Positions 9,334 through 39,797 of a DNA stretch of 64,000 nucleotides are shown piece by piece. Location: positions 186,001 to 250,000 of the forward strand of contig JAUNHG010000002.1 in assembly GCA_030524035.1 (NCBI GenBank), given 5' to 3'. This DNA is from Kocuria sp. (GTDB taxonomy: Bacteria; Actinomycetota; Actinomycetes; Actinomycetales; Micrococcaceae). The notes under the pieces were generated by a model. It saw nothing but the letters and a program-made list of their open reading frames with translations, made no database searches and was not told the DNA's origin. A program made the translations under genes and the position numbers. Position 1 is the first letter of the stretch. Each line of letters starts with the position of its first letter.

Positions 9334-10259
9334 CGATATATGACCCGGCTGCGCCTTACGCGATTCCATTGTTTGCTTTTTTTGCCGGGGTGGGTTACTT
9401 CATTTTCCTCCCTGCCTGGATAGGGGCAGATAAAGAATGGATCTTACACCGAGGGTGGGGGTACCCACCCCTCTTGGGGTTATCGATCGCCGCATTCTTC
9501 CAAGGGGGTATTTTTGCGTCGATTATGACAATGTTCGATCCCCCTGAGGAGGGTGTGTCCACTTTCATTGGGGCGGTTAGTTTGTTTTTGGCGGCGTTTA
9601 ATTGGTTGGTGGTGTTGCCGGTGGCGTTGTGGGGCCGGTATTTCCCGTTGCCGCGGTTTTTATTGCCGGGGTGGATTAAAGAGTTTTTAGCTACGGGGGA
9701 GTTGGACCTTAGCGATGAGTGGGGCGAGGTGATAGACGAGGATGAGGATTTAACGGGGGAGTTGCCGTTTAAGTCGAGGGTTCAGGTGGTTCGGTGGTTG
9801 GTTAGTGGTGTGGTGTGTGTGGGGTTGGGTGTGGTGAGTGTGTTGTTGTTTTGGAGTCTTGCGGTGACTGGGTCGGCGTCGGGGATTTCTCGGGTGTGGT
9901 GGCCGGCGTTTCCGGTGATGGGTGTGTTTTTGGTGGTGTTGGGTGTGTATTTCTTGTGGGGTGGGGTGCGTCCTGAGCATGTGGTGTTGGATGAGCGGGG
10001 GTTGCGGACTCGGTCGTGGGAGTTGGTGTGGGGTGAGGTAGTGGGTGTGCGTGAGTTACCGTCAAAGATTGTGGTGGAGGTCACGCAAGGGGCTGCTGAT
10101 CGTGTGCGGAAAGCGAATCGGTGGCATTCGGGACGCCCTGGTGGTGTGGGTGGTTTGTTGGCGGTGGGGAATACGGTGGGTTTGCAGTCGTCGTTACTGG
10201 ATCATGATGTGACGTATTTGATCATCAAACAAAAACTCAACGGTACTAATCGTTCATGA
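9330..10259 (+). CDS. Membrane protein of unknown function
   Basis: A 309-residue protein with hydrophobic helices near residues 10-30, 45-70, 80-110, 155-180 and 190-215, an acidic cytosolic stretch between (ELDLSDEWGEVIDEDEDLTGE) and a soluble C-terminal part of about 90 residues that may form a small beta domain (VVLDERGLRTRSWELVWGEVVGV). I do not recognise the family. Its start overlaps the stop of the small upstream ORF, so the two are coupled. From about 9560 on, the coding strand is extremely rich in G and T, with runs of GTG and TTG codons, which creates long antisense open frames that are not genes. It converges on entA and overlaps its end by 6 nt. Confidence 0.75.
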   Translation: MTIYDPAAPYAIPLFAFFAGVGYFIFLPAWIGADKEWILHRGWGYPPLLGLSIAAFFQGGIFASIMTMFDPPEEGVSTFIGAVSLFLAAFNWLVVLPVALWGRYFPLPRFLLPGWIKEFLATGELDLSDEWGEVIDEDEDLTGELPFKSRVQVVRWLVSGVVCVGLGVVSVLLFWSLAVTGSASGISRVWWPAFPVMGVFLVVLGVYFLWGGVRPEHVVLDERGLRTRSWELVWGEVVGVRELPSKIVVEVTQGAADRVRKANRWHSGRPGGVGGLLAVGNTVGLQSSLLDHDVTYLIIKQKLNGTNRS

Positions 10260-11018
10260 TTGACTGGACCCGCCGTCAATAACAATATCTCCTAATGTCA
10301 TGTGAGAAGCGTCGTCACTGAGTAAAAAGCTAATCAAAGGTGCAATGTCGCCCGGTTGGCCAATGCGCCCCAAAGGAATTCCGGGCTGATACGTCGCGAG
10401 ATTGCCTTCCACTGTCTGTTCACTACGGTCCTGCCCATCCCACATGTCCTGAACCATGCGTGTGTTGGTGGTGCCCGGGGAAACCACCATGCAGCGGATT
10501 CCGTGACCTGCCACCTCAAGCCCTAAGCTGCGGGTGAACTGCGATGCAGCAGCTTTTGTGGCGGAATAGGCGGCAAGATGTGCCCGTGGACGCCGGGCGG
10601 AATTAGAGCCAATTGTTAACAGACAGCGTCGATTGCCAATACCACGTGGATCCTGAGCCACCATCACCCTGGCTGCTGCTGTCAAAACATGAATAGTCCC
10701 CAGCAGATTCACGTGCACGACATGTTCCACGGCGGTGCTTTCGGTAGTCAGTGCGGGTCCGTTCACCAAAACGCCGGCGGCGTGCACCACGGAATGTAGG
10801 GCATATTTTTGCCCAATGTTTTGCAAGAACAATTCGCACGCAGCAGCATCCGTCACGTCAAGCTTATCCGTGCCCGTACCGTGATCCGCCGTGAGATCCG
10901 TCCGCACCACCGTGAACCGTCGTTTACCGGAAGGCGTCGTTAATCCTGACAGGTGATCAGCAATAGTTCGTCCAATGCCGCCGTGCGCCCCGGTGACCAG
11001 AACTGCTGGTGTGCTCAC
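10254..11018 (-). CDS. entA: 2,3-dihydro-2,3-dihydroxybenzoate dehydrogenase (EntA)
   Basis: A 254-residue short-chain dehydrogenase that would oxidise 2,3-dihydro-DHB to 2,3-dihydroxybenzoate with NAD+, the last step of the catechol branch. It shows the cofactor loop GAHGGIGR, the NxAG-like HAAGVLV, the catalytic Ser in TIGSNSARRPR and YSATK, and the late GRIGQPGDIA segment. The start is GTG at 11018, overlapping the TGA of the aryl carrier protein gene (GTGA), which couples the two. A longer frame to 11066 would overlap the carrier gene and is rejected. Role is assigned mainly from context, as the fold alone is generic. Confidence 0.9.
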   Translation of the reverse strand: MSTPAVLVTGAHGGIGRTIADHLSGLTTPSGKRRFTVVRTDLTADHGTGTDKLDVTDAAACELFLQNIGQKYALHSVVHAAGVLVNGPALTTESTAVEHVVHVNLLGTIHVLTAAARVMVAQDPRGIGNRRCLLTIGSNSARRPRAHLAAYSATKAAASQFTRSLGLEVAGHGIRCMVVSPGTTNTRMVQDMWDGQDRSEQTVEGNLATYQPGIPLGRIGQPGDIAPLISFLLSDDASHMTLGDIVIDGGSSQS

Positions 11019-11263
11019 TGGCCATCCGTTGTGGCATGAGGGGAATCGCCCAGCAGTTTCGCCCACGACGCTAGTTTGGGTTCGGCGGCCAGATCCGCAT
11101 AATCGACGGGGTATCCCGCAGCCAGCACCTGCTCTACCAGGCTCATGATGCGTACAGAATCAACACCCATATCGCTCAAATCAGCCTGATCATCTACTTC
11201 ATCAGGCGTACCCCCCACCATAGTGGCCACTTCTTTGCGTAGTTGCGCGATGATTTCAGCCAT
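11015..11263 (-). CDS. Stand-alone aryl carrier protein for DHB
   Basis: An 82-residue carrier protein with the phosphopantetheine site DMGVDSVRIMSLVEQV (Ser at about residue 36). The GVDSVRIM form is typical of aryl carrier domains such as the one at the C-terminus of EntB. The EntB-like protein in this cluster ends before that domain, so this small protein should carry DHB from EntE to the first condensation domain of the NRPS. It is the first gene of an operon with entA, divergent from the NRPS gene, with an iron box between. It needs activation by the phosphopantetheinyl transferase at 39798. Confidence 0.92.
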   Translation of the reverse strand: MAEIIAQLRKEVATMVGGTPDEVDDQADLSDMGVDSVRIMSLVEQVLAAGYPVDYADLAAEPKLASWAKLLGDSPHATTDGQ

Positions 11264-11330
11264 CTAAGTCCCCGATTTCCGCAGGATACTCCTGCTCAGT
11301 CTGGTCATTCACTCGACTTCTCAAACTAAC

Positions 11331-11349
11331 ATAGGTTAGCCTAACCTAA
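11331..11349. promoter_or_regulatory. DtxR/IdeR-type iron box, carrier protein-entA / NRPS
   Basis: ATAGGTTAGCCTAACCTAA is a near-perfect 19-bp match to the DtxR/IdeR operator consensus (TTAGGTTAGSCTAACCTAA), differing at one base. It is in the divergent region and ends 38 nt before the NRPS start, so Fe2+-bound repressor would block both directions. Confidence 0.92.
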
Positions 11350-11387
11350 TAGAGTTGTATTGCTTGTGACGTGGGGGAAAGGGAAGT

Positions 11388-14300
11388 ATGCAGGACGCAG
11401 TGCCTGGTCCAGACCAGCGGGATGCCTCGGAATGGTTCCCACTGTCCGGGGCCCAACAGGGGATCTGGAACGCACAGCGTTTGGAGCAGGCCTCTCCCTT
11501 CTACGTAGTCGGTGAAGTAGTGGAAATCGGCCCAGGGTGCATTGACATCCAGGCACTGGCAACAGCCGTTCAGACAGTCGTGGAAGAAACTGAAACACTG
11601 CGTCTGCGATTCCGTGAAAGCGATTCAGGCCCCCAACAGAAGGTAGACGACGGCCCTATTCCGTTACCCGAAATTCGTGATTTACGTACCGCCGTTGCCC
11701 CTTGGGTGTTGGCTCAGGCGATCGTGGATGCTGAGCGCACCACTATGGCAGAACACTGTGCGGGGATGACTAGCCGGTCCCTGTGTAGGTACGTGATCCT
11801 GCAACTGGATGGCAACACAGTCTGGCTGATCCAGCTTTACCACCACTTGGTCATCGACGGTTATTCGGCAGCCCGCCTGACACGCCGCATTGCCACTGTC
11901 TACCGCGCAATCGTGGCCGGGGCGGAAGTGCCTAGGCCCGGGCATTACCCGATTCGTGAACTGGTGGACCAGGACCGTGACTACCGTACCGGTGCGCAGC
12001 ACGCAGTAGACCGCGACTACTGGGTAGAGGCTTTTACACCCCTGCCCATCATGAATGCCCGGGATGCTTCGCCCAAAAACCCTGGAGCGCGGACAGTTTT
12101 TGTGTCAACAGAGCTCAGCGCAGATGAGGTGGAACGGCTGAAAACTGTGGCTGCAGAAGCCGGAGTGAGCTGGGTGGACGTTCTGCTGGCTGGGTACGCC
12201 GCGTTCATTCATCGGCTGCTGGGAGATCGTGATGTTGTGATCGCCTTCCCCATGATGGTCCGGCAAACCGCAGCATCGCTCAAAACCCCAGGGATGGCGG
12301 TAAACGTCCTACCCCTGCGTGTGACAGTAGATCCCACCCATACCGTGAAACATCTTGCGCGTCAGGTGGCGGAGGTGATGGCCCAGATGCGTCGTCATCA
12401 AATGTACCGGGGTGAAGAGCTCCCGGGGGCTTTGGCCACTCCGGGAGCTCGTTCATTACTGCACGGTGTGGGCGCCAACGTGAAGGTTTTCAACCCCATG
12501 CTGGATTTTGCGGGCGTGCCGGGGGTGCTACGCAACGTAGCTGGTGGTCCTCCAGAAGACCTGGGCTTGACCGTCACACCCCTGCCCCAAACACCGGGAA
12601 GTTCCCCGGGCCGTATACAGCTGAGTTTTGAGACGGATCCCGCCCGTGTATCCCGCCCCCGTGCTAGGAAACGCATGGAGAGCTTCACCCACTTATTGCG
12701 TGGACTGCTGGAGCCTTCTGAACCGTTAGTGGGCAGCGTCAGCACCCACGAGGCGCGGGATATTGAAACCATGCAGCTACTGCGTTCAGCGGACACACAA
12801 ATATGCCCCCAGGTTCCTCAGCTGGAAGAACTGATCCGCTCCATCCCGCAATTTTCTGGTGACCTTCCCGTTCTGGTGGACGCACACGACCGGCTGACAG
12901 GCGCTGACGTTCTGGATCGAGCCCAACACCTCGCTGCCGTTTTGCAAGACAACGGCGTGGGGCCGGAAGACGTTGTATTACTTGACCTTCCGCGCGGACA
13001 CCGCATTGTGATAGGGATCCTGGCAACTCTGCTGGCGGGGGCGGCTTTTCAGGTGCTGGATCGCGCCCACCCCGTGCAGCGGCGTCGGGATACGGCGAAC
13101 GATGGTGCGGCCCGTGTGGTGCTCACAGACGCTGACGGCGACTCCCTGACCCGTCCGGAAGCCACCCATGTGCGCTGGGAGGACATCGACTGGCACCAGC
13201 GTCGCTGCCCTGTGTCGCAGAACACCAACGACGCCGCACTCGCGTACATCCTGCACACCTCAGGAACTACCGGGCGGCCCAAGGGGGTGCAGATCACCCG
13301 GGGAGCATTGCGTCACCTGATCGGACACCACCTGCATCACCTGTTCCCGTCTGCCCAGACAGCAGCCAGTCGAGACCGGGTGAAAGTAGCGCACACCGCG
13401 TCCTTCTCGTTTGATGCTTCCCTGGACCAGCTCTCGTGGATTTTTGGTGGGCACAGTGTTTATATCTACGACGCCGCAGTCACCGGCGATGCCTTGGCGT
13501 TTCTGGAGGCGCTTTCCGCTGATGACATAGACGTCTTAGACACTACGCCGTCCCTTGCATCCGTGCTGGTGGAGTTCGGCCTTCTGACATCGGACAACGC
13601 CCCGAGCACGCTAATTTTTGGTGGTGAGGCACTGCCCGGGAATCTATGGCGTTCCTTGGTGGCGTCCGGCGTGAAAGCTTGGAATCTGTACGGCCCCACG
13701 GAAGCGACCGTGGACGCAATAGCGGCACCTGTGACTGGTCATACCCCGACCATCGGACGTCCCTTGGCAGGAACTCAGGCGGTGGTCCTGGATGCGGACC
13801 TGTACCCGGTGCCCGATGGTGAAGTAGGTGAACTGTACCTGGGTGGCCCCCAGGTGGCGCGGGGGTACCTGGGGCGGCCTGCCGAAACCGCAGTACGTTT
13901 TGTGGCTGACCCCTACAATCCAGGGCGCCGGCTTTACCGCACCGGGGATGTAGTTCGATGGGAACCCGGGGTGGGGTACATCCACCTGGGACGTGCCGAT
14001 GATCAGGTGGAAATTCGCGGTCAACGGGTGGAACTAGCGGAGGTAGAAGCCGCGCTGAACGATTTACCGGGGGTGTCCACCGCCGTAGTGGGAACCGTAG
14101 GGGAGGTAGGGGAAGCCGCCCTGATAGCTCACGTTTTACCAGCCCACGGCGCCACGATGACTCCGCATCATGTGCGTGATGCGTTAGGTGAACGCGTGCC
14201 GCCGTACTTGATTCCCGCCCACGTGATGGTTCTCGATAGCCTTCCCACCACGGTGGGCGGCAAGGTGGATCGGGCTGCGTTGCCCATGCCCCACGACGAG

Positions 14301-17300
14301 CCCCACCAGGGTGAACGCACGCAAGCGGCAGCCACCCCTGCAGAGGAAGTTTTAACAGATGTGGTGGCGCAGGTTTTGGCCCGTTCCGGCAGAAGTGCTC
14401 CCGCAAGTATCAGCATGGACCAGGACTTCATCACACAGGGCGGCGACAGCATTGCAGCTCTGACCGTGATGGGGCAAGCCAAGCAACGCGGCATGGTGAT
14501 TGCTGCCCAGGATTTGCTCAGCTCAACACCATTGGCGGCTGTGGCAGCACGAGCCACCATAGTGGAGAAACCTCAAACGTTCGCCCCCGGAACTCTTAAA
14601 CTCACTCAGGAGGGGGATCACCAGGAAAAACACGTCGAGATGCCCGCTGCTGATGAGCTTGAGGGTTCCTTGACAGACCTTCCGGTGGGGTCAATGCCGT
14701 TATCACCGGTGATGCACACGCAGTTGCGCGCAGCACCAACTCATGATGCGTTGCGCGGGCACGCTCAATGGGTGGTCGTGGACACCGGAGCCTGCCTGGT
14801 GATTGATGCTTTGGAAGAGGCAATTCAAAGCCTGTTGGATCGCCACGACGCCTTCCGGGCAGTGCTGTACCGCAGCCTTACCCCTCACTTACTGATTCGG
14901 CGTGCTGGAGCTGTGGAGGCCGCAGATGTCCTGACAACGCTCCCGGCGGATCAACACCCAGATGCCGAAGACACTGTGGCACAGCAGCTGGTCGAGGGAC
15001 TCGACCCCGAAACCGGTGACATGATCCGGGTGGCAGTGCTCCCGGGGAGCCGGGGCGACAAACTCCTGATCCTGATCCACCACATGGCTGTTGACGCGGT
15101 GTCCTGGCAAATCATTCTGCGTGACCTCCAACAGTTCTACGACGTCTCAGCACACGGAACATGTTTGTCCGTGGAATCCGTGGGGACTTCATGGCGTCAC
15201 GCGTCACGCAGTGCCCAGGCACGGGTCAACAGCGGGCAACTGCGCGAACGACTTGACCAATGGCAGCGCATACTGGGGGCTGGGCCAGACATCGCCTTGG
15301 GGCGTCGTCGCCTGGATCCAGGGCAGGACACCGTGATAACGGCGCGTCGACGTGTGTCAAGGGTAGATCCCAAACTTAGCCGGGCGATCACCCAAGAGCT
15401 AACCGCCGCTTACCGTATGCGGCCTGATGAGGTCTTACTGGCGGGCCTGAGTCTGTCCTTGGCCATGTTTGACCATGAACAGCAACGCTCCGCTGCTGCC
15501 TTACGGCCCGTGACATTAGAAAGCCATGGGCGTGACGTGTTAGAAGATGCGGATCTTTCCGAAACGGTGGGGTGGTTCACCACAGAATTCCCGGTTCATG
15601 TGAGTTCCCCCGTGGTGGGAACGGCCCAAGGACCGGACCGGGTGATGGATCACGCCACGGTTCGTTCAATAACGGGCGGTGGGGAGGCCGCTCGTGCTTT
15701 GCTGCTAGCGGCCAAAGAATCCTGCCGGGCTATCACAGATACCTCCTCCTACGGGTACCTGCGCCATCTGGACTCCGAAGGCAAACAGAAGCTAGGGCAC
15801 CTGCCCGAACCCGAGGTTGTGCTCAACGTAGTGCAGGGCTTCACCGCAGCAGAGACTGCTTGGAAGCTGGAGGGTGACCGTGCTTTTCGTGTCATCGAAT
15901 CCCCCCAACGCCACCTCACGGAGCCATTGACAGTCAACGTGTTCCTTCCGGCAGATGCGGATTCAGAACTGGTAGTGGAATGGACCTGCGCGGGGAAAAT
16001 CTTCTCTGAGGACGACCTAGACCGGTTGCATGAACATTTTCACCGTGCGCTCTGCGCCCTGGGGACACATGCGGCCACAAGTGCTACGGCGGGGTGGGCC
16101 AGCCCATCTGATGTTTCGTTACTGAACGCGGATCAACAAGGCCTGGACGAACTCCAGGGGCGGCACGGGGCTGTTCAGGACGTCCTGCCGTTATCCCCGC
16201 TGCAAGAAGGCCTTCTTTTCCACGCTCTATCTGATGGCAGTGACGACTCCTACGTTTTGGCGGCTGCCTTGGAGATCGAGGGGCATACAGACCCCGGACG
16301 GTTACGCGAAGCATTCACTGCCATGTTGTCACGCCATCCTGTGCTCAAAGCAGCCTTTGACATCACCGCCTTCCCGCAGCCCATTCATGTTGTGCCGCAC
16401 GAAGTGGAGGTACCCTGGCAGTTCGTGGATCTGTCAGCGATCCCAGAAGAGGCCGCACAACACGCGGTGGATAGCGTTTTGACGGAAACTGCCCACCGTG
16501 CCGTGGATGTGACCAGCTCACCATTGCTGAAAGCCACACACCTGAAACTTGCTGAAGACCGTTCGGTTCTTGTGTTGGGTGCCCACCACTTGGTAACCGA
16601 TGGATGGTCCACCCCCGTGATGGTGCGGGACATGATGGCTTTCTACCGTGGGGAACAAACCGATCTTCCCGCTGCTGCACCCTTTGCAACATATCTGCGG
16701 CGGTTGAGTTTGACCACGGCCGATGCTGCCTTGGCTGCGTGGAGCACACATCTGGCCGGGCTGACAGAACCTACGTTGCTGCAGAACATAGCTGACGTTG
16801 AATCTGTGGCTGATCATGCAGCGGGAGGCCCTGACACCATACGGAAAGTTTTAGATCTTGCCCCCGGTGCTGTGGAACAACTTGATCAGCTTGCCCGCGA
16901 TCATGCCTTAACCGCTAACACCCTGTTGCAGGGTGCTTGGGGCAGTGTGGTGGCGCGTGCACTGGGGCGTGAGGACGTCGTTTTTGGGGTCACCGTATCC
17001 GGGCGGCCCACCGATATTCCGGGGATCGCCGACACCGTGGGGCTGTTTGCCAACACCCTGCCAGCCAGGTTCACGATCAACCCTGATGAACCCTTACTGG
17101 AAGCGTTCACTCGGCTGCAAGGCGATCAGGCCAGAATGGGTGAGCACGATGCGGTGTCCCTGGCCATGATTGACCAGCAAGTGGGGCTGGGCCCCCTGTT
17201 CGATTCGTTGGTGGTGTACCAAAACGCCCCCAGCGTCGTAACGGATACCGGAATCCCCAGGGTGGCGTGTGTGCGCAGTGCGGGAGGCACCCATTACCCC

Positions 17301-20300
17301 GTGAATGTGATGGTGCCACCCGGTCAGGCATGGCGAATGATCGTGGAACATGACCCCGCCAGGATTGACGATCGCACAGCGCGGATGTTGCGTCATGGGC
17401 TGGTGCGTGTGCTTGAGGCGCTATGTGTTGATCCCACGGTGAGCTTGCGGCAGATTGACCTGGACCAACCTGTTGAGACTACTGGCGTTGTTGCTGCCTC
17501 TCGAGATGCGACTGAACACATCAGCACTCCCCGTGAGGCTGTGCGTTCAACGCCGGCTGACAACGGTACAGACATGCCGCAGGTGGCCAATGCAGAAGCG
17601 CTGATCGCCGCCGAAATGGGTGAGGTCTTAGGGCGTCCGGACGTTACCGAAGGCGATGACTTCTTCAGCCTCGGTGGGCACTCCTTGACTGCTATGCGCT
17701 TACTCGGACGATTACAGCGTCGCGGGGTGGCAATCACCCTGCCCCAGATCCTGGAAGAACGGACCCCCGCACTGATCGCCGCCCGTGCCCAGGGAAAAGT
17801 GCAGTGCGACTCTACGGAACCTGCACAGAAAACCACTGTGACCACCGACCGTGGCCCCACGCTCAGCCCGGCGGCCCAGCGTTTGTGGTTCCTGCACCGC
17901 CTTGAAGGTAGTTCGACGGTCTATAACGTCCCCGTGGCCCTTGAACTGAGAGGGGAACTGAATCCGCGCGCACTTCAGCAGGCCTGGGACGACGTGCTGC
18001 AGCGCCATCAGGTGCTGCGCACGATGTACCCGGAGCGCGCCGATGGCACACCCACCGCAGAACTTGTGCCGCCCCAACAGCTGCCGCGCCTAGTGGACGG
18101 GGCACCGGATTCCTTATCCGGTGCCGCGCAGGACGCCGTGCAACATAGCGCTGAGGCTTGGTTCCGTGACCCGGATCTGGCTATGGATATCACTCGTGAA
18201 GCTCCGGTGCGGGCGGCTTTATGGCGGGTGACGGACCACCATGCGGTACTGCTGTTGGCAGTCCATCACATTGCCATTGACGCCGAATCCATCGACCCCT
18301 TACTGGCTGATCTATCGGCGGCCTATCGAGCTCGGGCGGCAGGCCAATCTCCGTCGTGGCCGGATGTTGCGGCGCAGTCCCCGGAACCGGTTCCACTCGA
18401 ACAACTCAGCGATGATGAACACTATTGGGCGGCTGAACTGTCCGGTGTGCCGGATGAACTTGACCTTCCCACGGACCGACCCAGGCCTCAAACCCCGTCG
18501 TATCAGGGGCACACCCAGATCCAGGATCTTGCCCCTGACCTACAAGTTGCACTAGACCAGGCGTGTGTGCGGCATGGTGTGACTCCGTTGATGATGCTGC
18601 GCACCGCCGTGGCGGTGTCGTGGTCCATGCTGGGCGCGGGGATGGACATCCCGCTCGGGTCCACAATGGCTATGCGTGATGACCTTGCTGATACCCACAG
18701 GAGTGTGGGCTATCACGTGAATTCCATAACTGTCCGCTGTCGCCTTGATGCACACTCCACGGTGGAGCAGACGATCAGTACAATCCGGGCAGCTTCTCTG
18801 AACGCCCTAGAACACGCAAGGTTGCCTTTTGAACGGGTGGTTGAGATCGTGGAACCTGCCCGTGATCGGGCACGTCACCCACTCTTCCAGACCTTGGTTT
18901 CCTACGAGGTTCCTGCGCAAGTTCCAGGTATCGGGGACTTAGACACCCACGAAATCACCATTAGAACGGACACCTCCCGCTTTGATATCGCGGTGTGGCT
19001 CGTGGAACCCGAACAGGGGCCACACGCGTTGCGTGTGGTGGGCTCCAGTGACCTCTTTGACTCCCGCACCGTGGCCCTTATGGCCGATACCGTGCAGCAG
19101 ACACTCCGGCAGATGGTGGAATCGCCACATGCCCGTTTACATGAACTGACCATGACGTCACAACCGGTGGCAGACCCCCCGATGCGCGGCAGTGTGCTGC
19201 TGAGCGTTCCGCAGGCAGTGGATGCGCAGGCGGGGCGAACACCAGAGCGGGTGGCAGTCACAGATACTGACGGTCAGCTCAGTTACGGGCAACTCATAGA
19301 ATCCGTGGAATCACTCGCGGCGCGTTTGATGGCGGCAGGTGTGGGTGAAGGAACGGTGGTGGCGGTTGCTCTGCCTCGTGATCGTCGGTTGGTGGTGGCC
19401 CTATTAGCTGTGCAGCGTCTGGGGGCGGTATATCTTCCGCTGGATCTTGAGCATCCTCCCTCCCGTCTGAGCCCCGTGCTCGACGACGGTGCCCCGCACT
19501 GTGTGTTGAGCACCTCCAACGATCAGCACCGCCTACCCATTGGCTCGCCCGATGTTGTGGCAGTGGACCAACCGCCGGGTGGTGGGCAGATTCACGATGT
19601 CACCCGGCTACCGGATCTCCCGACAGCCGATGAGTCTTTGGCCTACATTCTGCACACGTCGGGTTCTACGGGACGTCCCAAGGGTGTGATGGTCACTCGG
19701 GCTAACGTGGCGGCTTTCTTGGCATCGGCGCTCCAGCTGGGGTGGGTGCGTGACGGTGAATCCCTGCTGGCTGTGACCACCGTGTCTTTTGATATTGCCG
19801 GGTTGGAACTGTTTGCTCCGCTGATGGTGGGTGGCACCGTACATATCGCAGACCGGGATACTGTGGTGGACCCCACACTTCTATATGGGGCGTTGGTCAG
19901 AAGCAATGCGACTGTATTGCAGGCAACTCCTTCCCTGTGGCGTGGTCTGGTGGAGGCTTCCGGCGCCGCTGCGGGAGCGGGACTATCCGGTGTGCGCGCC
20001 GTGGTGGGTGGGGAAGCAATCCCCCCTGATCTTGCGCAACAACTAGCAGAATGTTGTTCTGAGGTCCACAACGTGTATGGTCCGACGGAAACGACCGTAT
20101 GGGCCACCACAGCCCCGATCACCCAAGGATCGCCAGTACGCATTGGCGCCCCGTGGACTGACGTGAGGGTTCGGGTGTTGGACGATTTCCTGCGCCCAGT
20201 GTCCGACGGGGTAGCGGGAGAGTTGTACATCGGTGGCGCCCAAGTGGCGCGGGGCTATCTGGGACGTCCGGCGCACACCGCATGCCGTTTCATCGCAGAC

Positions 20301-23300
20301 CCTGAATACCCGGGCCAGCGGCTGTACCGGACGGGCGACCTGGTGAGCGTACGTGACGGTGTGCTCCAGTTCCTGCGCAGGGCAGATGACCAGGTAAAGA
20401 TCCGTGGTCACCGTGTAGAACTCGGAGACGTTGAGGCCGCCTTGCGACAGGTCGACGGTGTACGACAGGCCGCCGCTACCATCCGCACCGATAACCGCGG
20501 GGTATCGCAGTTACTGGGCTACGTGGTGATGAGTTGTGATGGGGCGGCAGTTACACATCCCACGGTTGCCGCCGATATCCGTGCGCAGCTCACTGCGGTG
20601 CTTCCCGGATACATGATCCCGGCCATTATTACTGTGGTTGATGCGATACCCATGACCACTAACGGCAAGATCAACTGCTCTGCGCTCCCTGCCCCAGACG
20701 TTCTCACTCATCAGGGCAGGGGAGCACACACACCGGCTGAAAACATCCTCTGCGGTGTTGTGGCGGAGGTGTTATCCCTTGAGGTTGTGGGGCCGGATGA
20801 CGATTTCTTTGCCTTGGGCGGGGACAGCATTATGTCCGTGCGTGTGGTTGCACGTGCTCGTGAGGCAGGGCTGATGCTGACCGTGGCCCAGGTTTTTGCC
20901 ACACCACGTCTTGGGGCTCTGGCTGCAGCCGGTGTGTGGGCGGATGGTACGGAAGCACCCAGTAGTGACACCGCGCCTGACCACGGCCTATGGGCTCCGG
21001 AGGTGACCGACGAACTGCGTGGTGTACTGGATGCTTTAGCACCTGAATGGACTGAGGTGCTTCCCACCACCCCCTTGCAAGAAGGCATGTACCTGCAATC
21101 CATGGTGGATGGTTCCGCCGGAGCAGACGCTTACGTCGTACAGCACCGGTTTACCCTGGAAGCCCCGGTCCGTCCCGATGTCATTCGTCAAGCCTGTGAT
21201 GCCCTATATGTGCGTCACCCCATGTTGCGTGCCGGGTTCACACACCGTGGTGTGTCATCGGTCATCCAGTTCCTGTTACCGGAAGGCCGAATGCCATGGG
21301 TGCAGCGTGCGCTGCCTGACCACGCAGTACTTGATGCCGAGGCCTCCGCACAGTTCCACCGCTGGATTGACCCCCAGTGTCCTCCGCTGATCCGAGCATT
21401 TTTGGGGACGCTGCCGGATGGTTCAGCGCAGTTGATTATTACCCAGCACCATCTGCTCACAGACGCATGGTCTCAGGCGGTGCTATTCGACGAACTGTTC
21501 ACCCTGGTCCACCACATTGCTCACGTGGAGCCTGGCCAATCATGGGATGCAGCATCGGTGTGCGGACCGGCGCCGGACTTTCGGGAGCACCTGCGCCACC
21601 TTGCACAACAACCGCACGATGCTGGGTTGCAGGCGTGGAGCGATTATCTGGAAGGCTTCACCGAACCGACCATCCTGGTGGGGGAGGGTGCCGTGACAGA
21701 ACCGGTGCCGGAAAGCATCGAAGCCGTGGTGCCCGCCAGCACAGAGCACGCCCTCGATGACGTAGCACGAGTGCTGGGTGTCAGCCGTGCCACCGTGCTG
21801 CAGCTGGCCTGGGGATTAACGCTGCAAGAACTCACTGGCGTGGACGACGTCGTCTTCGGCATCACCGTTTCCGGCAGGGACCCGGCTGTACCAGGGGTGG
21901 AATCCATGGTGGGGCTGACGTTGAATACACTCCCGTTACGCGTCCAGGTGAGGCCGTACCATTCACTCAAGGACGTAGCGCAGCGAATATTCCACGAACA
22001 CGGTGTTTTAAGCGCGCACCATGGAATTGGGTTGGGGCAGATCCAGCGGGCGGTGGGGCAGTTGCCACTGTTCGACACCTTGATGGTTTACCGTAATACT
22101 CCTCGCGATACCGGTGCACGGAACAGGGTGTTTACGCAGGTCGGAGTGATCCAGGCGCAAGCACTCGATGCCACACACTACGGGCTTGTGCTCGATGTGG
22201 ACCCTGGTGGTGCTGATACCCCCGGGTGTGTGCGGATTGAATACCACCCGGAACGGGTCACGACTTCACGAGTCCGGCACGTCATTCAGCGATTCACCCA
22301 AATACTGGAATGCATCGTGGCGGCTGAGCCCCAGGATTCCGTGGCATCGGTGCTAAAAACTCAGGTCACCACGACCACAAGTACGGCCCTCACGCCGCAG
22401 TATCAACCAGCCCCGTCGGCGAAAGAACCTGGTGGCACCGTTGATGCCCTGCTACGGGAAATGGCCGGACGTTGGCCAGACAGAGTGAGTTTGGTGGGGC
22501 GCGACTTTTCCTTAACTGCCCACGAGCTGAACACTCGGGTAGAGCGAATGGCTCGGATTCTGGCGGCTCAAGGTGTGGGGTGTGGCGATGTAGTGGGGAT
22601 TTTCTTGCCACGCATCGCTGACCACGTGGTGGCGATTTTTGCTGTGATGCGCGCCGGTGCTGCCTATTTGCCGTTGGAACTCGGCCAGCCTATTCACAGG
22701 GTTCATCAACTGCTCACGGATTCTGGTGCTGCCGTACTGATCACCGGGCACGGAGCTAATTCAGAGTCATCTGTGCAAGTGCCCCACGGGTGTGTGGTGC
22801 TCGACCTGAACGACGCTACGGTGCAGGCCATCGTGGGAGGAACTCAAACCCCGCCGTCTGTACCACACACGGCGGTCGACGGACCACACCACCTTGATCA
22901 GCCGGCTTATGTTATCTACACATCAGGATCGACGGGAACACCCAAAGGTGTGGTTGTTGGTCACCGTGGGTTGGCCACGATGTACCACAACCACGTGGAG
23001 AAAATCTTTGATCCACTTGCGCAACGCTTGGGGCGCCCCGCCCGGGTGGCCCATACCGTGAATTTCGCCTTCGATATGTCCTGGGAAGAACTGTTGTGGA
23101 TGTTGCGCGGTCACCAAGTTCACGTGATTGACGAAACTATGCGACTCACACCGGGCCCACTGGTGAAGCATTACCGCGCTATCGGGATTGACGTGGTGAA
23201 CGTGACCCCCTCCTATGCCCGGGAACTCCTGGCAGCGGGACTTCTGGAGCACACCACACACCCTGCCTTAGTCATGTTGGGTGGCGAAGCGGTTCCGGAA

Positions 23301-25070
23301 GACCTGTGGAGCCTGTTGCGTGAACGCAAAGACGTTGATGGTTACGACCTTTACGGCCCCACCGAATTCACCATCAACGCCTTTGGGTCCCCGGTGGATG
23401 GCAACGAGCGGCCCTGTTTGGGGCAACCGGTGCGTAACGCGCGTGCACGCGTCCTAGATGCATTCCTGCGTGAGGCGCCCGTGGGGGCGGTGGGTGAACT
23501 GTATCTATCCGGTGATGGTTTGGCCCATGGTTACCTAGGACGTCCCGCATTAACCGCTGCCACTTTTGTCCCTGACCCAGATGTCACGGGCGCTCGCATG
23601 TACCGTACTGGCGATATGGTGCGCCGTGGTGAACAGGATGTTGTGACGTACCTGGGGCGCACCGACCGCCAGTTGAAGGTACGGGGCATGCGTGTTGAAC
23701 CTGGCGAAACGGAGGCAGCGGCTATGGCGCTGCCGGGTGTGGGCGGCTGTGTCGTGGACGTTCGTGCCCCGTCAGATGCGACTTCCCCGGCTCGGTTGGT
23801 GGCATGGGTGACGCCGGATGGGGAAGGGCAACCAGACCCAGTGCAGATAAAGTCCCAGCTACGTGAGGTGTTGGCAGCCCATCAGGTGCCGTCACAAGTG
23901 ATGGTGGTCCCTGAAATCCCGCTGACCCCCAATGGGAAAAGCGATCGCGCCGCTCTGCCGGACCCCGGCGCGGCAACCGGTGGTACACGTCCCCCCCATC
24001 CCGGTGCTGAAACTGATGTGTGCGTTCTGGTGGAGCGGATCTTGGGGCTAGAGCCCGGTGCCGCTGACCCCGACGCCTCATTCCGTGACCTGGGTGGGGA
24101 TTCCCTGACCGCCATGCGGTGTTCCAGCGCCGCTGAAGGGCAGCTGGGGCTCAGCCTCCCCGTGGCGGACCTGCTCGGTGGCCGAACGCTGGCGTCATTG
24201 GCTGGTGATGTGCACCCCATGACCGACGGCCAACGTGTTGCGCCCCGGACCCACGAGCACGTTCTGCGTCTTCGTCATGGGACGGGGGAGCCGCTTTTCT
24301 GCATCCATCCTGGGGGAGGGTTCGCCTGGCCATTCCTTGCATTAGGCCGATGCCTGCCGGGCAACCGACCCATGATTGGCCTGCAACTGCCACCGGAAGT
24401 TTCCCCTGCGCAGAACACCTGTGACGGGACAGAACCCCTGACCATGGGGGATCTTGCGCGGGACTATGTGCACACCATCCGCTCACTACAACCGGACGGA
24501 CCCTACTACCTATTGGGGTACTCCTTTGGTGGAACCATGGCGCACCACATCGCCGCCGAATTAGAGGGAAATGGAGAACGGGTGGCTTTTATGGGGGTCC
24601 TTGACGCGGAACCCGCAGGCCAAAGCGGACACCGTCACGCCGGAGACACCACAAACTTTACTGATGTCTTATCAAGAGAGGATGTAGCAGAGCTTGCTGG
24701 AATACCCGATGACTTCCAGGAACGTTCCCCAGAACTCATGGATGTGCTACGTACCAACTTGCAACGGTGCACACGGTTGCTGGCCACTTCGCGTCCCCGG
24801 GTCTTCACTGGTCCCGTCACCTTGGTCATCGCAGATCAGCTGCCCCACGCGGTATCCCCAGGTTGGCACGACGCCCGTGTGGCTCGCCCCGGGGATACCG
24901 CGTGGGCACCTGAACAGCACTGGCGGCAAAGCCATACAGGGCCGTTGACCGTGCACCATCTGCCATTTACCCATTCCCGCCTTGTCACCCCTGAAGGGTG
25001 GGACCACATAGCTGCTCTGTTGGCGTCAACTCCCGTTGTGAGTAGAGACACCAGCAGAAACTCACCGTAA
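11388..25070 (+). CDS. Siderophore NRPS, C-A-T-E/C-T/C-A-T/C-A-T-TE
   Basis: A 4560-residue peptide synthetase. Approximate domains: C1 15-450 (HHLVIDGYS), A1 480-970, T1 near 1016 (GGDS), E 1085-1530 ([10 protein letters not shown]), C2 1585-2010 (HHLVTDGWS), T2 near 2095 (GGHS), C3 2150-2580 (HHIAIDAES), A2 2610-3080, T3 near 3142 (GGDS), C4 3200-3640 (HHLLTDAWS), A3 3680-4165, T4 near 4235 (GGDS), TE 4290-4555 (GYSFGG). Hand-read pocket codes are A1 DADDIGLVDK (two acidic pocket residues, so probably a basic amino acid), A2 DILQVGVVWK (glycine type) and A3 DMENMGLINK (N5-hydroxyornithine type). Module 2 has C and T but no A domain. C1 should accept DHB from the aryl carrier; TE releases by hydrolysis or cyclisation. 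It is iron-regulated by the box at 11331 and followed by fepB and mbtH. Confidence 0.97.
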
Positions 25071-25170
25071 ATCTGTCCCACCCCTGGGGACGGGTTTCGA
25101 AAAAGGCAGCGGTGACCGCCGCATGCCGCACATTTGTACACATCTACACAGAAGTAGAAGGAGCCAATCC

Positions 25171-26190
25171 ATGAACTCCACAATCCTCCATCGGAGGGGG
25201 CCGTTGAGCCTCCTCGGTATGTTCGTGGTCGCACTGATCGCCATGTTTGTTCTGGTCGCATGTGGTAGTGGGAACAGCAGCGATGACTCGTCGTCTGGTC
25301 ATGAAACCAGCGGTGAAACTCGTACCATCAAGACTGACCAGGGCGACATCGAGGTACCGGCTAACGCTGAACGTGTGGTCGTGTTGTCGGGAAGTTTGGC
25401 CGGTTACGCGTTTGCTTTGGACGCCCCGGTGACTGCCACAGACACCCGTGTGATTGGGGTGACTGACCTCTCTGATGAATTCCCCGAAGCTTGGGCGGAT
25501 GAAGCCAAAGAACAAGGCACTGAAGCTTTGCCCGGCGGCGAACAGCTCAGTGTGGAAGCCGTAGCGGCAGCCGACCCCGATCTCATCATCGGTGGTGGTC
25601 AGGGCATCACGGCAGTCCAGGCTGAGGAAGCCTATGACGAACTGTCCGAAATCGCTCCCACCGTTCTTGTTCCGAGCTCCGTGACGGACTGGCAGGGCGA
25701 ACTGAACATGATTGCCGAAACCCTGGGGAAAGAGGACAAAGCGAAAGAAATGATCTCCGCCTACGACAGCCGGGTGGAAGAAGTGAAAAATGCCATTACA
25801 GTCCCCGAGGGCGAATTTGAGGTTTTGTTGAGTTTGTCCACTCATGAACCCAGCTTGGTCCCGGCAGATGCCGCACTGCCTAAACAGCTTGAAGCACTCG
25901 GCTTTAGCGCCTCTGATGTCTACACCAAAGCCGATGAGCCCGAGCTGTACGGTTCCGGGGACTCCTTCAACGTCAGCAACGAAGTCCTGCCCACGGTGGC
26001 AGATGCTGATACCGCCTTTGTGATCAACTTGGGTGGAAAGACCGTGGATGAACTCAAAGACGATTCGGTCTACTCGCAGCTACCAGCTTTCGAAGAAGAC
26101 CAAGTCCACGAGCTTCCCGCCGCCAGCTACCGCCCGGACTATGACGGTGCTATGGGAACCCTGGACAGGATCGAGGAAATGTTCGGCTGA
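25171..26190 (+). CDS. fepB: Ferric-siderophore binding lipoprotein (FepB-like)
   Basis: A 339-residue periplasmic-binding-type lipoprotein that should capture the ferric siderophore outside the membrane and hand it to FepDG. The N-terminus has positive residues, a hydrophobic stretch and the lipobox LVAC (Cys near residue 31) followed by a Gly/Ser/Asp linker. The mature part begins [23 protein letters not shown], typical of class III (BtuF/FhuD-like) proteins, with [10 protein letters not shown] and [11 protein letters not shown] further on. ATG 25171 has AAGGAG 8 nt upstream; the frame is open further back but without a ribosome site. It lies 100 nt after the NRPS with no iron box of its own, so it is probably cotranscribed. 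Confidence 0.93.
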
Positions 26191-26215
26191 GCATAGCCCT
26201 AGGAAAGGAGTAACC

Positions 26216-26419
26216 ATGACCAATCCGTTTGATGACGAAGACGGTATGTTCCGCGTGTTGGTGAACGCTGAAGAGCAGCACTGCCTGTGGCCAGTTTTCC
26301 GGGATGTTCCGGAGGGATGGACTGTCGTCCACGGTGACGGTGATGGTGCTTCACGTGCGCAATGCCTGGAGTACGTTGAAAGCCACTGGACGGACATGCG
26401 CCCACGCTCCATTCGGTAA
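26216..26419 (+). CDS. mbtH: MbtH-like protein
   Basis: A 67-residue MbtH family protein, the small partner that binds adenylation domains and is often needed for their solubility or activity. It has the full signature: NPFDDEDG, then [20 protein letters not shown] and the final [11 protein letters not shown]. The ATG is preceded by AAAGGAG. It is the last gene of the NRPS-fepB-mbtH run and is followed by a strong hairpin. Confidence 0.98.
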
Positions 26420-26426
26420 CGCACCC

Positions 26427-26462
26427 GCGGGTGGCTGGGTTTTTAAGGGCTCAGCCACCCGC
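26427..26462. terminator. Bidirectional hairpin between mbtH and entC
   Basis: GCGGGTGGCTG (26427-26437) pairs perfectly with CAGCCACCCGC (26452-26462) around a loop with TTTTTAA. It lies between the converging mbtH and entC genes and overlaps the last codons of entC. Confidence 0.8.
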
Positions 26463-27632
26463 CACGGGAGAAAGACCGATATGTTCCTGCAGCCAATGAC
26501 CGCTGCCCAGGGCTGACAACATCGGGGAGAATTTCAGATAGGTTTCGGCCAGTTCGTGCTCCGGGTCAGAGTCGGCCACAATCCCGCCACCGGCGTGCAT
26601 CGTCATGGTCTGGCCGCCGTCACTGAGGTGACCCGCTCGCAGCAGTACCCTCCAATGCCCATCACCAGAGGCATCTGACCATCCCACCGCTCCGGCGTAG
26701 AAACCGCGCTCGCCTTCCACTTCACGAATGTGTTGCATGGCTTCGGCGCGTGGGGTTCCCGCGACGGCGGGCGTTGGGTGCAGAGCCAATGCGAGCTCTA
26801 GTGCGGTGGTTTCGGTGGAAGCTAAGGTGCCTCGAATGGGAGTGCCCAGGTGCCACACATGGTCGGTGTGGGTCAGCGTGGGTAGTGGCGGAACATCAAG
26901 TTCATGGCACCAAGGCTGGAGTGCTTCTTCGATGGCTTCGACCACAAACCGGTGTTCGTCTAGGTCTTTACTGGAGTTCTGTAACGCCAGTGCTGTGTGA
27001 CGGTCTGCATCCCGATTGTCTAGGCGGCGTGCGGCGGTACCCGCCAGCGGATAGGTGAAAATGCGGCTGCCGCGTCGGGTGATCAGGATCTCTGGGCTGG
27101 AGCCGACGATGTGGGTGTTTGCGTAACAACCACCTGCGGCATCTAGAGAGGCCAGAAAACCGCGGCCATCGTGGTCTGCGGTCACTAATCGGTCGAGCAT
27201 ACGGATGACTGACAGTGGTTGGCGGAAGCGGGTTGTAAGACTGCGTGCCAGGACGACTTTGTCCATGTCACCGCGTTCTATTCGCTCTACGGCCGATGCA
27301 ACGCGGGCGATGTGTTCTTGGGGGGAAGGGATTTCCTGCCAGCTTTGTGGGCTATCGGATATGGAGGTCTGCTCGTTTGGTGTCTGAGCATCACCAACAT
27401 CACGACGCTGTAGTTCCAACCAGCCGGTGTTGTAGTGCTGCCACGTGTGGGGTGTGAACAGCGCGGTGGGGTGGTCGGGGTTGAACGGAATGCACCCGGC
27501 TACCACTTTCGCCCCTCCAGTTGAAAGCGCTGATGCTGCTGCTTGTGCAGTGGTGAATTCCTGGGTGCTTCCGGTTCCAACAACAGTGTGATTTTTGTCG
27601 GTAAGAACAAAGGATGGAGTGTGCGCTGACAA
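26451..27632 (-). CDS. entC: Isochorismate synthase (EntC/DhbC)
   Basis: A 393-residue chorismate-binding enzyme converting chorismate to isochorismate, the first step to DHB. The C-terminal two thirds show the family blocks: KVVLARSL, SPEILITRRGSRIFTYPLAGTAARR, DLDEHRFVVEAI, HLGTPIRGTL, LHPTPAVAGTPR and GFYAGAVGW with a final GGGIVADSDPEHEL. The start is TTG at 27632, the only reasonable initiator in this frame, with GGGAG upstream. Divergent from entB across an iron box. The closest alternative, salicylate synthase, is disfavoured by the presence of entB and entA. Confidence 0.93.
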   Translation of the reverse strand: MSAHTPSFVLTDKNHTVVGTGSTQEFTTAQAAASALSTGGAKVVAGCIPFNPDHPTALFTPHTWQHYNTGWLELQRRDVGDAQTPNEQTSISDSPQSWQEIPSPQEHIARVASAVERIERGDMDKVVLARSLTTRFRQPLSVIRMLDRLVTADHDGRGFLASLDAAGGCYANTHIVGSSPEILITRRGSRIFTYPLAGTAARRLDNRDADRHTALALQNSSKDLDEHRFVVEAIEEALQPWCHELDVPPLPTLTHTDHVWHLGTPIRGTLASTETTALELALALHPTPAVAGTPRAEAMQHIREVEGERGFYAGAVGWSDASGDGHWRVLLRAGHLSDGGQTMTMHAGGGIVADSDPEHELAETYLKFSPMLSALGSGHWLQEHIGLSPVAGG

Positions 27633-27734: not shown

Positions 27735-28391
27735 ATGTCGATTCCTAAGATCGATAGCTACCTGATCCCGTATCCAACGGAAACGGATCGGGTGGCGTGG
27801 GATATTGATCCTTCGCGGTGTGCTGTATTGGTGCATGACATGCAGAATTATTTCGTTGAGGCATACACCAAAGATCAGGATCCCGTGGCTTTGGCGGTGC
27901 GGAACATGCAGCAGATTCTCCATGCGGCACGTTCTCAGGGCGTACCCGTGGTGTATTCCGTGCAACCGGGCGACCAGCACCCCATGCGACGTGGGTTGTT
28001 GAAGGATTTTTGGGGTGCTGGGATGAGCAGTGGCGCGGACACGCAGGTCATTGAGCAGTTAACGCCCCACCGGGAAGACATTGTGGTGACCAAGTGGCGA
28101 TATTCAGCTTTTCAACGCACAGATTTGCGGGATCTGCTTCACCGTGCTGGTCGTGACCAGCTTGTGATTATGGGTCTTTACGCACATATGGGCTGCCAGC
28201 TCACGGCGGCGGAGGCGTTTATGCAGGATATTGAGCCGTTTTTGGTGTATGACGCTATCGCTGATTTTTCGCACGCAGAACATTTAGGGGCGATTGATTA
28301 TGTGGCAAAACGGTGCGGCCGGTCGGTGGCCTCCGATTATGTGCTCGATGCTCTGAGCGGACACGGCGTACCGGAGGTTACTGATGCCTGA
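27735..28391 (+). CDS. entB: Isochorismatase, EntB-like without carrier domain
   Basis: A 218-residue isochorismatase that hydrolyses isochorismate to 2,3-dihydro-DHB and pyruvate. It carries the EntB N-terminal pattern: PKIDSYLIPYP, VLVHDMQNYF (catalytic Asp), VVTKWRYSAF (Lys) and MGLYAHMGCQLTAAEAFM (the Cys-loop region). It stops after the hydrolase domain (DYVLDALSGHGVPEV), whereas E. coli EntB continues into an aryl carrier domain; here that role is taken by the separate protein at 11015-11263. It overlaps entE by 8 nt. Iron box upstream. Confidence 0.95.
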   Translation: MSIPKIDSYLIPYPTETDRVAWDIDPSRCAVLVHDMQNYFVEAYTKDQDPVALAVRNMQQILHAARSQGVPVVYSVQPGDQHPMRRGLLKDFWGAGMSSGADTQVIEQLTPHREDIVVTKWRYSAFQRTDLRDLLHRAGRDQLVIMGLYAHMGCQLTAAEAFMQDIEPFLVYDAIADFSHAEHLGAIDYVAKRCGRSVASDYVLDALSGHGVPEVTDA

Positions 28392-30024
28392 GGCGAACAG
28401 CTCATATGTCACTCATGCCGTGAGCGCGTCGGGGAGCGTCGTGCTACCAACGGGTGTACCGGAGTCGGTCGCCCAGCAGTATCGAGACCTGGGGTTGTGG
28501 GTTGGGCAAACCCACTGGGATTTTCTGATTGAGGCAGTGCAGCGTCATGGTGATGCGCCTGTGGCGCGTGATAGTTACCGGAACCTCACGTACCGGCAGC
28601 TTCAAGAGTCTGCAGAGCGACTCAGCACAGAATTGGCCGCGCGTGGTATTTGTGCGGCTGACAGGGTGGTTGTTCAGTTACCTAATTCGGTGGTTTTCTT
28701 AGAAGTGATTTTTGCACTGTTCCGGTTGGGGGCTGTGCCTGTTTTTGCTCTTCCTAGTCATGGGTCATTGGAAGTTCACCATTTCTGCCGGATTGCAGAG
28801 GCAGTGGCTTATGTGGGGTCGTCTCGCGCTCAGGGGAACGCAAAAGCTGTGGTTGATATGCTGCGATCTGATCAGCCGTCAATGATCATTATTGACATTG
28901 ATACTGCCGCGACTAACCCGTGGAAGGCATTACCGGAACAGGAGCTCAGGGAGCCCGCCGCTGTGTCCGCTGATGCTCTGGCTTTCCTGCAACTATCCGG
29001 AGGAACTACAGCCATTCCTAAATTGATCCCCCGCACTCATGACGATTATTTGTACTCAGTGCGTCGTAGCGTGGAATTATGTGATCTTCGCGCGGGGGAC
29101 GTGATGATGGTTGTTCTGCCATGCGCTCATAACTTCACCATGAGTTCGCCAGGGATTTTGGGTGCAATATACGCTGGGGCGCAGATTGTTATAGCAGCTG
29201 ACCCTAGCCCCACTACTTGTTTGAAAACTCTTGAGCGCCGTCGGGTCACTCAGGTGGCTTTGGTTCCGCCATTGCTGTTGTCCTGGCTTAATGCGCCAAC
29301 TCTGCCTGAATATAACCTCAGTTCTTTACGCACTGTGTGGGTGGGGGGAGCCAAGCTGAGCGACACAGTTGCCCGCAGAGTGGGTCCGGAACTGGGCTGT
29401 CAATTGCAACAGGTTTTTGGTATGGCTGAAGGCCTGGTGAATTACACGCGGTTAACGGATGACGTGAACACCGTGGCGACCACCCAGGGTAAACCTATGT
29501 CTGAATATGACGAGATACGGGTGGTGGATCATCAAGGAAATCACGTTCCCACCGGACAAGAAGGTCTGCTTTACACTCGAGGGCCGTACACCATTCGTCA
29601 GTATTACAAGGCACCTGAACACAATGCTAGGTCATTTACTCATGATGGTTTTTACCGTACGGGGGATATTGTTCGTCAGCTGGACACTGGGCATGTGATT
29701 GTGGTGGGACGGGATAAGGATCAGATCAATCGTGGTGGGGAAAAAATTGCTCCTGAAGCGGTGGAAAACGAATTACTGGCCCACGACTGTGTTCATGATG
29801 TCTCAGTGGTTGGGCTGCCCGACGACATCCTCGGTGAACGAATCTGCGCTTACGTTATACCGCGCGCAGGATGCGTTGATCGTATGCCCAGCATCGTGGA
29901 GTTCCGGAATTTCTTGCGAGAACGTGGACTAGCTTCTTTTGCGATGCCCGATGTTTTGCGGATTGTTGATCGTTTTCCTCATACCGGAGTTGGGAAAGTC
30001 AGTAAAAAGGATCAGCGTCAGTGA
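28384..30024 (+). CDS. entE: 2,3-dihydroxybenzoate-AMP ligase (EntE/DhbE)
   Basis: A 546-residue stand-alone adenylation enzyme that activates DHB and loads it onto the aryl carrier protein. Core motifs are LQLSGGTTAIPKLIPRTH (P-loop), PCAHNFTMSSPG (the Asn and Ser that read the catechol in DhbE), QQVFGMAEGLVNYTR, YRTGDIVRQ and DQINRGGEKIAPEAVENEL, and the C-terminal lysine region TGVGKVSKKDQR. Length matches the family. The start overlaps entB and its stop overlaps the start region of the monooxygenase gene, indicating one operon from entB through the ABC transporter genes. Confidence 0.97.
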   Translation: MPEANSSYVTHAVSASGSVVLPTGVPESVAQQYRDLGLWVGQTHWDFLIEAVQRHGDAPVARDSYRNLTYRQLQESAERLSTELAARGICAADRVVVQLPNSVVFLEVIFALFRLGAVPVFALPSHGSLEVHHFCRIAEAVAYVGSSRAQGNAKAVVDMLRSDQPSMIIIDIDTAATNPWKALPEQELREPAAVSADALAFLQLSGGTTAIPKLIPRTHDDYLYSVRRSVELCDLRAGDVMMVVLPCAHNFTMSSPGILGAIYAGAQIVIAADPSPTTCLKTLERRRVTQVALVPPLLLSWLNAPTLPEYNLSSLRTVWVGGAKLSDTVARRVGPELGCQLQQVFGMAEGLVNYTRLTDDVNTVATTQGKPMSEYDEIRVVDHQGNHVPTGQEGLLYTRGPYTIRQYYKAPEHNARSFTHDGFYRTGDIVRQLDTGHVIVVGRDKDQINRGGEKIAPEAVENELLAHDCVHDVSVVGLPDDILGERICAYVIPRAGCVDRMPSIVEFRNFLRERGLASFAMPDVLRIVDRFPHTGVGKVSKKDQRQ

Positions 30025-30086
30025 TGGATCATCAACCACAACAACGCATTAAACCATCCATCTCCTCAAGGAATGAGGCACATTTT

Positions 30087-33246: not shown

Positions 33247-33263
33247 CGATTATCGTGCGTGCC

Positions 33264-39731: not shown

Positions 39732-39797
39732 CTTCATGGTGGCTTGTGTGCACCGTCATACCGGCCAGAAAGTACACCCGAGCGGCAGGATGTTGAG

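Follow-up and report, generated by a model that had tools for sequence, protein, structure and literature searches.

The second module of HtbG, the nonribosomal peptide synthetase (NRPS) of heterobactin, reportedly has the order condensation (C), peptidyl carrier (PCP) and adenylation (A) domain, i.e. C-PCP-A, and in the fuscachelin synthetase FscG each glycine module is said to have its own A domain. Heterobactin clusters are conserved in Rhodococcus erythropolis and Rhodococcus qingshengii (PMC7358434, PMC13206832), and heterobactin B of R. erythropolis has m/z 438.197 (PMC7824959). In capreomycin biosynthesis the A-less CmnI is loaded by CmnA-A1, as was shown in E. coli and in vitro (PMC12400406).

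Here we describe an NRPS encoded in a 64,000-nucleotide stretch of Kocuria sp. (assembly GCA_030524035.1, contig JAUNHG010000002.1, positions 186,001 to 250,000; hereafter the window), which lies in a siderophore cluster and contains, directly after an epimerisation (E) domain, a C domain and a carrier (T) domain with no A domain of their own. A-less modules served in trans are already known; an A domain serving two carriers of its own chain, as proposed here for the A domain A2, would be a new variant. CmnI and its viomycin counterpart VioI resemble this module in being A-less and, as is proposed for it, served by the A domain of another module, but they are separate proteins whose donor A domain comes from an earlier module, whereas in the window everything is on one chain and the proposed donor is downstream (PMC12400406). 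In the literature searched, which did not extend to the key papers Bosello 2013, Dimise 2008 and Miranda-CasoLuengo 2008, we found no description of a C-T-C-A-T layout or of an A2 loading two carriers.

Domain layout and the second module

The NRPS gene is a single open reading frame (ORF) at 11388..25070 on the + strand, encoding 4560 amino acids. Motif positions and domain searches give the order C1-A1-T1-E-C2-T2-C3-A2-T3-C4-A3-T4-TE, with five C-superfamily domains, four carriers, three A domains and a terminal thioesterase (TE). The A-domain signatures were taken at the GrsA positions; by the code tables we take A1 to read Arg/Orn, A2 Gly and A3 N-hydroxy-Orn, the signature order of heterobactin-type NRPSs. 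LCL and DCL denote C domains of the kinds that follow a T and an E domain, respectively.

11436..12452, +, C1; matched best in NCBIfam by the N-terminal C domain of MxcG, then by EntF
12915..14090, +, A1; signature DADDIGLVDK
14349..14549, +, T1; GGDSI
14793..16061, +, E domain of module 1; motif [10 protein letters not shown] at 15078
16173..17477, +, C2; directly 3' of E, tentatively DCL-like, HHLVTDG intact
17604..17777, +, T2; GGHSL, carrier without its own A domain
17862..19160, +, C3; LCL-like, HHIAIDAES
19281..20474, +, A2; signature DILQVGVVWK, proposed loader of T2 and T3
20748..20927, +, T3; GGDSI
21057..22349, +, C4; DCL-like, HHLLTDAWS
22521..23756, +, A3; signature DMENMGLINK
24018..24206, +, T4; GGDSL
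24291..25016, +, TE; release and, by analogy with heterobactin, probably cyclisation of N-OH-Orn

The E domain matched TIGR01720 below the cut-off and aligned to 2790-3218 of the NCBIfam profile PRK05691. T3 shows the GGDSI form that carriers upstream of E domains usually have, and C4 is DCL-like, yet no E domain lies between the two; perhaps one was lost there, and the loss was tolerated because glycine is achiral.

The initial annotation had described module 2 as a C and a T domain about 1 kb apart, with an intact carrier Ser and without an A domain or its motifs, and all of this was borne out. In 16140-17780 the only Pfam matches at E<=10 are Condensation (1.1e-64, residues 12-446 of the piece) and PP-binding (8.8e-12, residues 489-546), with no AMP-binding match. 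HHLVTDGWS begins at 16584 and GGHS, with its Ser, at 17673, a spacing of 1089 bases, and of the motifs TSG[ST]TG, YGPTE and YRTGD the whole NRPS has three copies each, none of them in the C2-T2 interval. The search with an A-domain hidden Markov model (HMM), which had been named as one way to disprove the annotation, was likewise negative: a model built from the window NRPS and three relatives and run with filters off gave E 1.4 at the window's C2-T2 junction, compared with 402-405 bits in two relatives that carry an A domain in module 2. A remnant of a lost A domain was also sought at 30 such junctions of the type I and type II loci defined below, but no trace was seen there, the best value being E 0.052 at 3.1 bits (L139).

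Recurrence of the layout and conservation of its domains

The order C-A-T-E-C-T-C-A-T, which we call type I, was read in 20 loci, four of them from Kocuria (window included) and 16 from elsewhere in the class. The genus is taken as Kocuria from its genome G006, which agrees with the Kocuria flava plasmid NZ_CP013255.1 at 100% across 11,500/11,500 bases. In type II, C-A-T-E-C-T-(half C)-A-C-A-T, part of the third C domain is missing, and in type III an A domain is present in module 2. A protein search with C2-T2 in 27 genomes of the genus matched nine, of which four contain the whole NRPS (window, G017, G020, G026), all with a type I layout on direct reading. Across the NRPS region (9001-27000 in the window) the four differ in G+C content: G017 and G026 both have 74%, G020 has 63% and the window 59%. 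The genome that the window comes from is small (2.3 Mb). The three relatives are 58-59% identical to the window in C2, 57-60% in T2 and 17-24% in the linker.

Wider searches were made with C2-T2 alignments, and their matches were read in part: 15 of 395 genomes of the family matched at 1e-60, six of 396 of the order at 1e-80, 44 of 394 of the class at 1e-90, and 171 of 301 at 1e-100 in the family of the class that includes G998. Outside the genus, type I was found in another genus of the same family (G303), in another family of the order (G493) and in G998; of the ten family matches outside the genus other than G303, the three that were read (L078, L090, L091) lack the layout. Of 34 further loci (33 places from 32 genomes of the G998-family search, mostly top-listed, and G824 from the class search), 13 are type I, ten type II and two type III, and nine are other NRPSs; these counts describe the loci read. 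A sequencing error or the loss of an A domain in a single strain is unlikely, because the same layout recurs in 19 other loci, including the three other genomes of the genus, which are 55-56% identical to the window over C2-T2.

The main ORF of six of the 20 type I loci has no TE in the scan (L122, L124, L135, L137, L139, L142), L124 also lacking T4, and one locus (L143) consists of two ORFs, the first carrying C3 and the second the part from A2 to TE. In a concatenated tree type II and type III each form one clade (100/100 for both), while type I does not; one type I sequence (L128) adjoins the bimodular outgroup, and L088 is a long branch. The tree requires two changes for the A domain of module 2, each of which may be a gain or a loss. 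Four other actinobacterial NRPSs (L084, L086, L087, L154), belonging to different assembly lines, also have an A-less C-T directly after an E domain.

The domains around the missing A domain are well conserved. With HHxxxD of C2 and C3 scored from alignment columns, C2 reads HHL[VL]TDG in 20/20 type I, 10/10 type II and 2/2 type III loci, C3 keeps HHxAxD in 20/20 type I and 2/2 type III, and T2 keeps GGHS in all 32. The ratio of nonsynonymous to synonymous substitution rates (dN/dS) in four type I pairs, from which the window was excluded as too distant from its nearest relative, is 0.09-0.27 for C2, 0.17-0.26 for T2 and 0.18-0.32 for C3, compared with 0.04-0.35 for other domains; C2, T2 and C3 are under purifying selection in the pairs tested. 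The signatures vary little over the 32 loci: A1 DADD[IVL]G[LMV]VDK, A2 DILQ[LV]GV[VI]WK and A3 DMEN[ML]GL[IV]NK, the exceptions being A2 of L143 (DMLQLGMVWK) and A3 of L153, a domain outside the sequence available for that locus.

Proposed loading of T2 and the predicted product

From the layout, the missing A domain, the intact C2, T2 and C3 and the signatures, all of them visible in the sequence, we infer that T2 is loaded, that A2 is its loader, and what the product would be. We consider it rather probable that module 2 is a working A-less elongation module, that A2 charges both T2 and T3, and that the product contains two glycines. C1 would join 2,3-dihydroxybenzoate (DHB), delivered by a stand-alone carrier, to the Arg or Orn on T1, and the E domain would epimerise this first residue. 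C2 would then move DHB-D-Arg onto the amino acid on T2. This carrier would be charged by the glycine A domain A2, which lies two domains further downstream and would also charge its own T3. The LCL-like C3 would condense the glycine on T2 with that on T3, after which C4 would add N5-hydroxy-Orn and the TE release the product. The predicted compound is DHB-D-Arg(or Orn)-Gly-Gly-cyclo(N-OH-Orn), with an expected [M+H]+ of 537.242, or 495.220 with Orn, and it would be one glycine longer than heterobactin. Fuscachelin, the product of FscG, has arms that each contain DHB, Arg and two glycines, as predicted here, and PCP2 and PCP3 of FscG are 65% identical (PMC8097023, PMC13251462), compared with about 33% for T2 and T3 in the present layout.

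The case for A2 loading both carriers rests on three things: how C3 is typed, the presence of a single set of A domains, and the loci of type II. As to the first, the phylogeny of C2 and C3 that had been called for was approached with a quick tree including 46 reference C and E domains. Each of the nine references nearest to C3 comes after a T domain, and the mean nearest path from C3 to after-T references is 1.97, compared with 3.62 to after-E references, so that C3 groups with the LCL type. C2 was typed less firmly, since three of its nine nearest references follow an E domain, five are protein-initial (three of these directly after a partner ending in E) and one follows a T domain, and the tree suggests a DCL type for C2 loosely. 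In PRK05691, C2 and C4 align to the C domain after E, and C3 to an earlier C domain. A C3 that accepts an L or achiral donor would be consistent with the addition of a residue on T2, but not with D-Arg being relayed.

A relay of this kind, in which T2 passes the chain from T1 to T3 without gaining a residue, or stands idle, would yield a heterobactin-like product with one glycine. A relative with the type I layout has been filed in print as a heterobactin cluster (PMC10972888), and the mass of heterobactin B from the Rhodococcus lineage fits one glycine: DHB+Orn+Gly+N-OH-Orn-4 H2O gives 438.198 (the heterobactin S2 value, 694.212, was left out of the fitting). We nevertheless hold a relay to be unlikely, because the LCL-like C3 would have to accept a D-residue donor; moreover C2, T2 and C3 are intact and, in the four pairs, constrained, and catalysis by C2 on an amine acceptor would be unneeded.

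As to the set of A domains, TIGR01733 reached its cut-off at three of 19 matching places in the genome, all three in the window NRPS, so a stand-alone amino-acid A domain over the cut-off was dismissed as the loader of T2. The other 16 places leave room for an acyl-CoA-ligase-like enzyme loading T2 from elsewhere in the genome, the best of them scoring 220.4 bits (contig C5, 15256-16455) and 213.8 bits (C5, 13408-14595) against a cut-off of 317.4. Such a loader seems to us extremely improbable: the four proteins compared (two on contig C5, one on contig C4, one on contig C6) are only 24-28% identical to A1-A3, three of the four match EntE best, and apart from the NRPS the cluster has no AMP-binding protein but EntE.

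The type II loci serve the comparison with heterobactin NRPSs that had been proposed, and are taken here to represent HtbG. These ten loci, which include one from R. qingshengii JCM 15477 (NZ_CP096564.1, matched by genome G1326 over 15,000/15,000 bases at 100%), share with the window the signatures and order of the A domains, the E domain after module 1, the A-less C2-T2 and similar DHB genes nearby. They differ in that C3 has lost its N-terminal half and T3 is absent altogether, which leaves C-PCP-A, whereas the window keeps C3 and T3 intact; measured against the C-PCP-A order that defines HtbG, the window NRPS is a relative of HtbG and not HtbG in the strict sense. The 243-251 amino acids between T2 and A2 of type II correspond, by eye and by weak HMM matches, to an LCL C domain reduced to its C-terminal half and lacking HHxxxD. 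This half domain has a dN/dS of 0.24-0.33 in three pairs, in every one of which C2, A2 and C4 have lower values; few synonymous differences underlie the first two pairs. A2 and C4 are only 29-30 amino acids apart in type II, compared with 107-167 in the 19 unsplit type I loci, from which we conclude that T3 is gone; T2 is the sole carrier between T1 and T4, and hence A2 can load only T2. In the simplest history, A2 would already have been able to load T2 before T3 was lost.

This bears on the idea that A1 or A3 loads T2, making residue 2 Arg/Orn or N-hydroxy-Orn. A1, A2 and A3 all share one chain, and the module-2 A domain of the two type III relatives has the signature DVAEYGTVDK, which resembles Orn codes. 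For the first cellulochelin NRPS the predicted residues are D-Orn, L-Orn and Gly (PMC13251462), and the capreomycin donor A domain comes from an earlier module (PMC12400406). Against this, A2 of the Rhodococcus form is without T3 and has only T2 left for its glycine, and no acyl- or formyltransferase that could make the hydroxamate of an inner N-hydroxy-Orn was seen among the cluster ORFs scanned, not every one of them in both libraries; we rate loading by A1 or A3 as rather unlikely. In the type III loci (L144, L145) this fourth A domain, besides its counterpart, is nearest (46-47%) to the second A domain of the bimodular NRPSs L146 and L147.

Alternatively, C2-T2 might attach a second DHB, e.g. 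on the side chain of residue 1, and heterobactin A reportedly bears a second DHB on the guanidine of Arg. A separate carrier resembling an aryl carrier protein (ArCP) already exists at 11015-11263, however, and the Rhodococcus form needs T2 for glycine, which makes this very improbable. The one further carrier in the genome over the Pfam cut-off (contig C4, 145585-145782) was considered as a second ArCP and set aside, as it is flanked by FabF-/FabH-like ORFs, judged by eye, and looks like an acyl carrier protein of fatty-acid synthesis.

Among the options that the initial annotation had listed for T2, loading in trans by an A domain of the same chain is therefore the best supported, since no other A domain exceeds the cut-off, C2, T2 and C3 are intact and, in the pairs tested, constrained, and A2 of the type II relatives has no carrier of its own left; the pass-through relay and the second DHB are disfavoured. 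Several observations weigh against the favoured reading as a whole. The mean path of C2 is 1.79 to after-E and 1.92 to after-T references, and the after-E references are scattered (6 rows, 6 changes). T2 is no closer to T3 (mean identity 33%, n=19) than to T1 (32%, n=20) or T4 (32%, n=18), so that likeness between carriers, tried as a clue to the loading A domain, proved uninformative. In L128 the motif of the E domain is changed, and in L143 it is either changed or misaligned. The signature DVAEYGTVDK in the two type III relatives is not a glycine code, and residue 2 therefore need not be Gly throughout the family. The cluster of Prescottella sp. R16 has been filed simply as heterobactin-like (PMC10972888). 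This genome was recognised as one of the type I genomes (G1271, identical to NZ_CP130944.1 over 11,500/11,500 bases). Its htb cluster is presumably the one that we read as L124, from the genome matched by the plasmid, with the order C-A-T-E-C-T-C-A-T-C-A; in the paper this cluster has two NRPSs, htbG and htbH, and heterobactin A is the structure drawn, while the main ORF of L124 has neither T4 nor TE in the scan (PMC10972888).

Siderophore cluster and significance

The genes around the NRPS include those for DHB supply, namely EntA-like, EntC, EntE-like, isochorismatase and the stand-alone carrier.

10254..11066, -, EntA-like 2,3-dihydro-DHB dehydrogenase; best NCBIfam match, 207.9 bits against an equivalog cut-off of 312
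11015..11263, -, stand-alone carrier (DMGVDS), presumed aryl carrier for DHB; PP-binding over the cut-off, no NCBIfam match
25123..26190, +, FepB-like siderophore substrate-binding protein; under the equivalog cut-off
26213..26419, +, MbtH-like protein
26451..27632, -, isochorismate synthase (EntC/DhbC); TIGR00543 over the cut-off
27735..28391, +, isochorismatase; no carrier domain found
28384..30024, +, DHB-AMP ligase (EntE); best match, 630.7 bits against an equivalog cut-off of 723.55
30021..31358, +, Lys/Orn N-monooxygenase
33192..36733, +, two ABC transporter membrane/ATPase proteins, possibly an exporter
36747..39699, -, siderophore ABC importer (FepC, FepG, FepD-like)
39744..40502, +, PptT-like 4'-phosphopantetheinyl transferase; under the cut-off

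The siderophore-interacting protein at 31402-33246 has about 350 extra C-terminal residues, whose only match is an O-methyltransferase dimerisation domain (27.3 bits, cut-off 25.6), and the three relatives of the genus, like the Prescottella locus, keep the protein at full length (99% coverage). A 309-amino-acid ORF at 9330-10259 matches nothing in Pfam or NCBIfam, and the stretches examined around the NRPS in ten relatives contain no equivalent of it. A large serine recombinase (XisF/CcrC-like, far under the cut-offs) is encoded at 1078-2760, upstream of the EntA-like gene by about 7.5 kb.

For the family as a whole, whose members are spread over several actinobacterial families, we see about an even chance that one glycine A domain serves an upstream carrier, across an intact C domain, as well as its downstream carrier, and that the C-PCP-A of heterobactin synthetase is the collapsed remnant of this arrangement, in which T3 was lost entirely together with half of C3, A2 kept T2 and an unchanged specificity, and the peptide became one glycine shorter. 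If A2 does load both T2 and T3, this would explain the odd C-PCP-A module of the heterobactin synthetase, and Kocuria, Prescottella sp. R16 and further actinobacterial genera would make an unreported siderophore with an extra glycine, so that the filing of such clusters as plain heterobactin would need correction. The forms with an A domain in module 2, without one, and collapsed would then provide a natural series in which to test the change of peptide length by domain loss and the choice of carriers by A domains.

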